From positions 1 through 64,000 of the forward strand of contig NZ_APJI01000015.1 in NCBI RefSeq assembly GCF_000497575.1: a stretch of 64,000 nt of DNA, read 5' to 3'. The position numbers were made by a program, and so were the translations under genes. Positions 24,416 through 25,740 of this stretch are shown here, one piece after another; positions within the stretch are counted from its first letter, which is position 1; the number at the start of each line of letters is the position of its first letter. Under the pieces are notes generated by a model. It was not told the origin of the DNA and did no database searches. It saw only the letters and a list, made by a program, of their open reading frames with translations. This DNA is from Afipia sp. OHSU_II-C1 (GTDB lineage Bacteria > Pseudomonadota > Alphaproteobacteria > Rhizobiales > Xanthobacteraceae).

Positions 24416-24476
24416 CGTGCGGGACGACCCGTATTGCTGAAGCTTCGTCGGGGACGGCCCTACATCTCCCGGAGAG
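24416..24476 (+). promoter_or_regulatory. Candidate guanidine-II (mini-ykkC) riboswitch 1
   Basis: Two small hairpins each closed by an ACGR loop: cggg-ACGA-cccg (24420-24431, extended by wobble pairs outward) and ggg-ACGG-ccc (24451-24460), linked by about 19 bases. That is the full consensus of the guanidine-II class. A ribosome site GGAGAG at 24471-24476 is caught in a further hairpin (acatctc with gagatgt), a plausible expression platform. The first ATG in range, 24485, is in frame with the atpB-like gene. Confidence 0.75.
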
Positions 24477-24580
24477 ATGTCGGGATGGCCGTTCCGGTTG
24501 GGAAGCCTTCCCCTCGTCATGCTCCGTTCAGATCGCTCCGTGCCAGCGGACGCGATTCTTTTGCATGCGACAGGGGCATC

Positions 24581-25330
24581 ATGGCCGGACCGATTGAACA
24601 GTTCGAAATCAAGCCGATCCTGAAACTCGGCGAGATCGCCGGGCAGCAGATCAATATCACCAATTCGACCGTGTACATGTTTGTTGCGGTCGGCATCATC
24701 AGCCTCTTCATGCTGCTTTCGGCGCGGCGACGCAGCCTCGGGCCGGGGCGCTGGCAGTCGGCTTCGGAGTTTCTATTCGAGTTTGTCGCCAGAACCGTGC
24801 GCGAAAACGCGGGCGAAGAAGGCATGCGATTCTTTCCGCTGGTGTTTTCGCTGTTCAGCTTCATCCTGGTGGCGAACCTGCTCGGCATGTTCCCCTATGC
24901 CTTCACGGTCACCAGCCATCTCGCCGTGACTTTCATGATGGCGATGATGGTGTTCCTGACCGTCACCATTTACGGCATTGCCCGCAACGGGTTCGGTTTC
25001 CTGCGGCTTTTCCTGCCCTCGGGCATTCCACCGTACATCGCGGTGTTCATCGTTCCGATCGAGGTGATTTCATATCTGTCGCGGCCTGTGAGCCATTCGG
25101 TGCGGCTGTTCGCGGTGATGCTTGCGGGGCATATCACGCTGAAGGTGTTCGCGGGTTTCGTCGTCGGTCTCGGCGGTCTCGGGACACTGGGCATTCTCGG
25201 TGCGGCAATGCCGTTTCTGATGGTGCTTGCGCTGACCGCACTGGAACTGCTGATGTGCGTCATCCAGGCCTACGTCTTCACCATGCTCACCTGCATGTAC
25301 CTCAACGACGCCCTGCATCCTGGGCACTAG
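24581..25330 (+). CDS. atpB: Solitary F0F1 ATP synthase subunit a-like protein
   Basis: A 249-residue membrane protein matching subunit a of the proton channel, with about five to six helices and the C-terminal [20 protein letters not shown] of alphaproteobacterial AtpB. The essential arginine is kept in [11 protein letters not shown], but the usual asparagine of RLFANM is valine. It stands alone: no atpI, atpE, or atpF follow, only sugE. So it is probably a second copy, the complete operon being elsewhere. The ATG at 24581 has aggggc five bases ahead; an in-frame ATG at 24485, right after the riboswitch ribosome site, would add 32 residues. Confidence 0.85.
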
Positions 25331-25352
25331 GTGCAGGCGCCGCATTCAAGTC

Positions 25353-25413
25353 CAGAGGAACGACCTCCCCATTTTCGGGCGCAATGACCGGGACGGCCCG
25401 GCCCTATGGAGAG
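25353..25413 (+). promoter_or_regulatory. Candidate guanidine-II (mini-ykkC) riboswitch 2
   Basis: Hairpin gagg-AACGA-cctc (25355-25367; the loop has one extra A) and hairpin ccggg-ACGG-cccgg (25388-25401), separated by 20 bases. The second hairpin is followed within seven bases by the ribosome site GGAGAG at 25408-25413, six bases before the sugE ATG. This is the expected placement for control of a guanidinium exporter. Confidence 0.82.
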
Positions 25414-25419
25414 TTGGAA

Positions 25420-25740
25420 ATGGCATGGATCTATCTCGCAGCGGCCGGCATTCTTGAAATCGTCTGGGCCTATGCGATGAAGCAGTCGGAAGGATTCACG
25501 AAGCCCGGTCCGAGCACGATCACCATTGTGATGATGATCGGCAGCTTCGCACTCCTGTCGATCGCCATGAGAACGCTTCCGCTCGGCACCGCCTATACGA
25601 TCTGGACGGGGATCGGCGCCGTCGGCGTGTTCCTGGTCGGAATTATCGTTCTCGGCGAGGCGGCGACACTGACGCGCCTTGCGGCCGCAGCCCTGATTGT
25701 TTCCGGTCTCGTGATGATGAAGCTTTCGACGCCGGCTTAA
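25420..25740 (+). CDS. sugE: Guanidinium exporter, SMR family (SugE/Gdx)
   Basis: A 106-residue four-helix small multidrug resistance protein. The first helix MAWIYLAAAGILEIVWAYAM holds the proton/substrate glutamate at residue 13 and the W16 typical of the Gdx branch. The loop PLGTAYTIWTGIGAVG is diagnostic of SugE/Gdx rather than EmrE. Gdx proteins export guanidinium in exchange for protons. The upstream ACGR hairpins support this assignment and indicate induction by guanidine. It follows the atpB-like gene by 89 bases. Confidence 0.93.
   Translation: MAWIYLAAAGILEIVWAYAMKQSEGFTKPGPSTITIVMMIGSFALLSIAMRTLPLGTAYTIWTGIGAVGVFLVGIIVLGEAATLTRLAAAALIVSGLVMMKLSTPA

Follow-up and report, generated by a model that had tools for sequence, protein, structure and literature searches.

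Guanidine-II (mini-ykkC) riboswitches, collected in Rfam as RF01068, consist of two hairpins with ACGR loops and control sugE/gdx or guanidine carboxylase genes; the available part of a review of guanidine biology describes them as translational ON switches, names exporters, importers and degradation genes as those under guanidine riboswitches, and puts guanidine toxicity down to protein denaturation (PMC12186494). ATP synthase genes lie under a cation riboswitch elsewhere, since the Na+-I RNA precedes genes of Na+-driven ATP synthases, and this is, going by the portion of that work at hand, the nearest precedent for the locus described here (PMC9971707). We analyzed a stretch of 64,000 nucleotides from Afipia sp. 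OHSU_II-C1 (contig NZ_APJI01000015.1, positions 1 to 64,000; hereafter the window), in which a predicted guanidine-II riboswitch stands before a dedicated paralogue of the Fo subunit a gene, atpB2, kept alongside the canonical atpB. The RNA resembles known guanidine-II elements in its two ACGR hairpins, its position and its predicted action as a translational ON switch, and the gene beside atpB2 is sugE, a classical guanidine-II target; it differs in that its target is an ATP synthase subunit, a gene type not named among guanidine-riboswitch genes in the available text of the review and of other riboswitch papers. It also departs from the Na+-I case, where the ligand is the coupling ion, in that the ligand would be a toxic cation and control would extend to a single, paralogous stator subunit. 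We consider it probable that this locus switches the ATP synthase stator between isoforms of subunit a in response to guanidine; the link between riboswitch and atpB2 comes from comparison of loci, while the exchange of subunits and its benefit are what we infer.

In family, length, fold, essential arginine and half-channel residues, AtpB2 is like the alphaproteobacterial Fo subunit a (AtpB), and it differs from the canonical protein as an extra, riboswitch-controlled copy with Val, Met and Ile at the positions of E. coli a214, a248 and a251. Further ATPase genes beside a main set are also known from the N-ATPase (alternate F1Fo), as far as the descriptions at hand go. The N-ATPase forms a whole operon. 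Its subunit a is divergent (altF1_A), whereas here subunit a alone is duplicated. AtpB2 (249 residues; 24581..25330, forward strand, as are all window features given below) scores 357.4 bits with the NCBIfam equivalog NF004482 (cut-off 225) and 216.5 bits with PF00119 (cut-off 33.9), and stays at 78.7 bits with the N-ATPase subunit a profile (altF1_A, TIGR03306), whose cut-off is 302.1. The preliminary description of this DNA had called the atpB gene solitary; it does stand apart, beside sugE, but the same contig bears, at a distance of about 59 kb (G000:C15:84206-84952), a second, canonical-type housekeeping atpB, which is 63% identical to atpB2. The dN/dS values of the window's atpB2 against five relatives lie between 0.085 and 0.135, indicating that the gene is under purifying selection. 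A structure model of AtpB2 reached a pLDDT of 69 and a pTM of 0.60, and the channel geometry is argued from sequence mapping to E. coli AtpB together with published E. coli work.

The aptamer before atpB2 (24416..24462; P1, 24418-24433, loop ACGA; P2, 24450-24461, loop ACGG) matches the RF01068 covariance model with 32.8 bits against a gathering score of 32, with E-values of 0.0093 over the whole window and 1.7e-4 when 1.2 kb was searched. Thus the proposal that the Rfam model would recognize this element holds, and the two pairs of ACGR-loop hairpins that had been described lie where they had been placed, the second at 25355-25367 and 25388-25401. As the score is barely above the cut-off, the case for a riboswitch rests on conservation. 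Among 29 genomes of the genus, five, the window's included, carry atpB2 at 90-100% identity, and weaker matches in two others (G022 and G001) have the canonical Asn motif. Orthologues were found in other genera at 81, 72 and 65% identity, and on the Phyllobacterium plasmid pT1293b at 67.5%. A look for the same arrangement in related genomes had been suggested, and the eight orthologues taken at the outset (93-65% identity) do carry it: with the window, Guanidine-II precedes atpB2 in all nine loci, over the gathering score in eight and at 31.6 bits in G013. All nine copies contain the motif RLFAVM, and Asn takes the place of that Val in 23 of 24 canonical rows, the motif not being found in the remaining one.

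A degenerate pattern for the Asn-to-Val change was then run against 84,980 species genomes, giving 101 stretches, 80 of which were taken. All 80 encode AtpB, 77 of the alphaproteobacterial type and three from Nocardiopsidaceae. Of the 77, 75 are labelled Rhizobiaceae, Phyllobacteriaceae, Brucellaceae, Devosiaceae, Nitrobacteraceae, Kaistiaceae, Reyranellaceae or unplaced Hyphomicrobiales; one has no placing, and one is labelled Bacillus subtilis (L154). In the latter record (JAHREI010000002.1, titled Bacillus subtilis SK6B4), both atpB2 and the accompanying canonical atpB score like those of Pseudochrobactrum (G273, G250); the record is probably mislabelled or contaminated. The Rfam model was run on 72 of the 77 loci, and four with less than 280 upstream bases were set aside (L096, L119, L121, L154). 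Guanidine-II was found over the gathering score, on the same strand and at most 400 nt upstream, in 59 of the 68 testable atpB2 loci, with scores of up to 46.9 bits (L152), and in six more (L093, L099, L116, L124, L156, L161) both ACGR hairpins are visible by eye below that score. A simpler test for a double ACGR hairpin was positive in 67 of 78 atpB2 upstream regions (four of the 11 misses pass the Rfam gathering score), in none of 47 canonical and none of three actinobacterial atpB upstream regions, in 59 of 4000 windows picked at random from the same loci (true elements included) and in one of 1560 first-order shuffles.

When 397 genomes were drawn evenly from the order, six atpB2 matches were obtained, the window among them; the other five all have the hairpins, and two of these are the same DNA as L138 and L163, hence three are new. 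In a draw of 385 genomes of the class, the window was the sole match. The gene is thus rare and patchy, yet its link to the riboswitch is tight as judged from these sequences. Compensatory change was followed in 48 related leaders, in which P1 covaries: 62 cells changed on both sides (47 of them in P1), compared with 26.1 in shuffles, and none of 500 shuffles reached as high. Two pairs of loci are the same DNA (L096 and L076; L108 and L077). The alignment for covariation left out L108, and the L108/L077 pair was counted twice in the residue comparison, the tree, the set used for the hairpin test and dN/dS, and the leader-frame and leader-fold analyses; L125 was included in the hairpin test and the neighbour survey and left out of the leader analyses.

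For 45 of the 80 loci, the genome was screened for a second copy, and all 42 alphaproteobacterial genomes hold a second, canonical-type atpB. The 47 canonical rows used for comparison comprise 34 second copies from these genomes and 13 others, and a regular-expression test placed a c-subunit gene beside the canonical atpB in 40 of 49 loci. In a tree of 76 paralogue and 47 canonical rows, the two groups fall on opposite sides of one branch (SH-aLRT 87). The three Nocardiopsidaceae genomes (L101, L132, L142) gave one AtpB match each, with Val at the position of aN214 and no hairpins upstream. This is natural evidence, at the level of sequence, that Val at this position is compatible with what seems to be a cell's only AtpB.

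The same 76 (two identical) and 47 rows, mapped on E. coli AtpB, separate at several positions of the protein. At position 179 (a214; Val179, codon 25115-25117), all 76 paralogues have Val, and the canonical copies have Asn (45) or Ser (2); at position 225 (a248; Met225, codon 25253-25255), all 76 have Met, and the canonical copies Val (46) or Ile (1). Position 228 (a251) is Ile in 71 paralogues and Leu (46) or Val (1) in canonical copies, position 165 (a200) is Tyr in 74 and Phe (46) or Tyr (1), and position 107 (a140) is Ala in 70 and Phe (30), Thr (14) or Ala (1). Thr at position 129 (a162; 74 of 76) and Met at position 235 (a258; 75 of 76) are likewise typical of the paralogues, and positions 3 and 76 also separate the groups. 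Common to both are R175 (codon 25103-25105), H184, E222 and Q229, the equivalents of E. coli 210, 219, 245 and 252.

The changed aN214 position lies one helical turn past the essential aR210, and helix periodicity would put a248, which stands between 245 and 252, on the same face as these two. In E. coli, according to the portions of the literature at hand, aN214 passes protons towards cD61; simulations place it between aH245 and aQ252/cD61 in the inlet half-channel, with aR140 at the gate (also PMC10532555), and the N214V mutant has a lowered ATP-coupled proton conductance (PMC11121307). The suggestion, made in the preliminary description, that atpB2 might alter proton flow would fit this Asn-to-Val change in the proton path.

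The 78 leaders between aptamer and atpB2 are of two types, 21 short and 57 long, the window's being long. In short leaders, 16-24 nt separate P2 from the start codon, and the ribosome-binding site, which is mostly paired in 15 of 21 folds, can pair with the last bases of P2. In long leaders, a third hairpin (TCTC/GAGA) usually follows P2, with a stem of at least 5 in 53 of 57 (shuffles: mean 27.3, maximum 33), and when the leaders of the window and of four relatives are folded without ligand, the P2 5' strand finds its partner past this hairpin. In the window, this predicted OFF hairpin (24451..24495) would pair 24451-24459 with 24487-24495 and enclose hairpin 3 (24462-24480), which contains a GGAGAG motif (24471-24476). 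With the real downstream sequence P2 is disrupted in 78 of 78 folds, compared with nine of 78 when the leader is cut after the aptamer, and P1 stays formed in 74 of 78. On this folding evidence, the P2 strand would pair downstream when ligand is lacking, hiding the ribosome-binding site of atpB2 or of an overlapping leader frame, and guanidinium would stabilise P1-P2 and open translation; this fits the translational ON switch known for guanidine-II.

The preliminary description had noted GGAGAG and then an ATG after each hairpin pair. Both motifs are present (24471-24476 and 25408-25413), but ATG 24477, directly past the first, is probably not the atpB2 start; it opens a leader reading frame of 48 codons (24477..24623) that overlaps atpB2. 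The atpB2 start at 24581 is backed by homology (MAGPIEQF...) and by an AGGGG of its own. An N-terminal extension of AtpB from ATG 24485, whose frame is open in the window, was rejected; sister leaders are of unequal length (120 or 122 nt) and show no conservation of the residues, and 24581 is therefore preferred. Of the 57 long leaders, 42 have a frame that ends between 20 before and 50 after the atpB2 start (shuffles: mean 13.9, maximum 20). Since the start that is freed in the long type would be that of a frame ending near the atpB2 start, translational coupling of the two is likely. A conserved leader peptide was considered and discarded: frames ending near the start are enriched, but similarity of their amino-acid sequences is confined to close relatives. 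The leader of the Devosia locus L104 contains, between the riboswitch and atpB2, a frame of 57 codons whose sequence is membrane-like.

We surveyed the neighbours of atpB2 in 85 loci (8-17 kb each, some cut near atpB, with only fairly close homologues detectable; both duplicate pairs are counted). A sugE gene lies directly downstream in 32 and a gene for a ChaA-like CaCA cation/H+ antiporter directly upstream in 12; where present, the neighbours found are thus proton-coupled antiporters. Neither was found within 1 kb in 41. The ChaA-like gene might encode a further guanidinium exporter, and in five of nine such loci scanned (L127, L144, L148, L151, L170) it comes with a Guanidine-II element that scores over gathering. 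As the riboswitch-atpB2 pairing also occurs where no sugE was found adjacent, and the ChaA-like gene has an element of its own, the atpB2 switch is not borrowed from sugE.

In the isoform switch that we favour, AtpB2 would replace AtpB in FoF1; the retained R175, H184, E222 and Q229, and the occurrence of atpB2 alone beside sugE in the window, point this way. The bottleneck of the inlet half-channel would become less polar and bulkier through Asn to Val at a214, the Val of canonical relatives to Met at a248 and Leu to Ile at a251. Guanidinium, described as weakly hydrated in the available text of PMC13064478, would then be barred from reaching, blocking or leaking through the Arg-carboxylate site, and proton-coupled ATP synthesis might continue, perhaps more slowly, while proton-spending Gdx-type exporters remove guanidinium. 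In its boldest form, the reading is one of target replacement: guanidinium, a look-alike of the essential stator arginine's side chain, would poison the Fo proton path directly, and the riboswitch-made spare subunit a, with Val 214 and Met 248, would have a remodelled inlet half-channel that passes protons and excludes guanidinium. We put this bold form forward tentatively, as rather less than an even prospect.

Several observations weigh against a conserved guanidine-inducible subunit exchange. There is no riboswitch upstream in three of the 68 testable loci (L107 and L140 from Pseudochrobactrum; L120 from Shinella daejeonensis), and the hairpins are absent from the 256 upstream bases of L154. 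The gene is rare, with six matches in 397 genomes of the order, and its frame is broken within the locus in L114, L153 and L159 (Brucella cytisi, B. oryzae and a Rhizobiales record) with the riboswitch retained, through decay or sequencing error. Two of five covariation measures are not above shuffles (changed pairs, 7 and 6.6; further pair types, 21 and 22.0), the control for P2 disruption is not low (443 of 780 folds with shuffled downstream sequence), and the branch between paralogues and canonical copies is not starred in the tree. Most of the 76 rows were found by a search for Val179 itself; this bias does not touch the first nine loci or the other diagnostic positions, such as M225. The Nocardiopsidaceae proteins, with Val and no hairpins, indicate that Val alone is not guanidine-specific. 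Finally, a simulated N214L substitution in E. coli predicts an interrupted proton path, in the available text of PMC11121307, and a nonpolar residue at a214 may therefore cost much proton flow.

In another explanation, guanidinium does not act on Fo and AtpB2 would be a low-conductance FoF1 subunit that cuts leak or flux, saving the proton-motive force for Gdx and other antiporters. The lowered conductance of E. coli N214V would suit it, as would the proton antiporters found as neighbours and the import of two protons per guanidinium by Gdx (PMC12186494, in the part available); however, in nearly half of the surveyed loci neither antiporter was found within 1 kb, and 24 of 29 genomes of the genus do without atpB2, most of them still with a SugE-family gene. 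We hold this explanation to be unlikely, with about one chance in a handful. It is more doubtful still that AtpB2 has left FoF1 and become a separate guanidinium or proton transporter derived from subunit a, as its guanidine switch and its frequent position beside exporters might suggest; the channel residues that it shares with canonical AtpB point instead to a place in FoF1.

The RNA itself could be read differently. A ligand other than guanidine might be thought of in view of the weak score in the window and because guanidine binding is a prediction; the ACGA and ACGG loops are, however, typical of the family, the relative L152 scores far higher than the window, and nearby copies serve sugE, so that a variant of this kind appears very improbable. 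The preliminary description had weighed two origins, one in which atpB belongs to the guanidinium response and one in which the switch lost an earlier exporter gene. That it is such a relic or hitch-hiker, before atpB by chance, is recommended by the sugE gene with its own switch-like element just downstream, but the pairing is kept in dozens of species, including loci with no sugE found adjacent, and P1 has undergone compensatory changes; we discard this origin, to which we give almost no credence. Comparison decides for a part of atpB in the guanidinium response: the pairing is conserved across families even where no sugE was found, and the paralogue has diagnostic residues of its own and is under purifying selection.

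That a spare subunit a is conserved under a guanidine switch suggests a further target of guanidine in the ATP synthase or the proton-motive force, and hints that cells may remodel the rotor that makes their energy once toxic guanidinium appears. The gene is also a natural experiment on a residue near the stator arginine that has been a long-standing subject of mutational work in E. coli. Should AtpB2 join FoF1 on demand, a small molecule would control the exchange of a rotary motor subunit; and if target replacement proves true, this would be metabolite-controlled isoform exchange in the rotary ATP synthase, with a molecular target named for guanidine toxicity. The RNA is of a known kind, and what seems new is that it serves a paralogous stator subunit: a literature search found no link between a guanidine riboswitch and an ATP synthase gene, although an entry in the gene table that accompanies PMC2864571 could have escaped notice, and the available portions of PMC2864571, PMC7266159, PMC9971707, PMC12335538 and PMC12342949 name no link between guanidine and ATP synthase.

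A search of plasmid records gave matches under 60% identity in 79 of 80 records. A second Fo cluster on a Sphingomonas plasmid (L088) was examined as a candidate and turned out to be an ordinary atpI-B-E-like cluster.

On the sugE side of the window, the gene (25420..25740) encodes a sugE/gdx-type transporter of the small multidrug resistance family, 106 residues long and a predicted guanidinium/H+ antiporter, which scores 97.0 bits with PF00893 (cut-off 23.7); its top NCBIfam model is SugE, at 112.5 bits against a cut-off of 126. The GGAGAG at 25408..25413 is its probable ribosome-binding site. The Guanidine-II-like element before it (25351..25401) scores 20.3 bits with RF01068, under the gathering score (E 0.17). 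A 5-base loop, AACGA, caps its P1 both in the window and in the four further genus members with the locus (L076-L079), unlike the ACGG or ACGA loop on the sugE side of more distant relatives, and the element is a variant or a decaying aptamer. A close form of the window's sugE (88-100%) occurs, among the 29 genomes of the genus, only in the five with atpB2, so that the two genes come and go together in the genus, and the flanking genes are unchanged in three of the four relatives with atpB2. The window's sugE has no match in the 16-17 kb taken around L081 and L073, two of the first nine loci. Two further SugE-family genes are present in the window's genome, and a Guanidine-II element of 39.3 bits (C3:2263-2310, L014), stronger than those of the window, lies ahead of one of them, a sugE 51% identical to that of the window.
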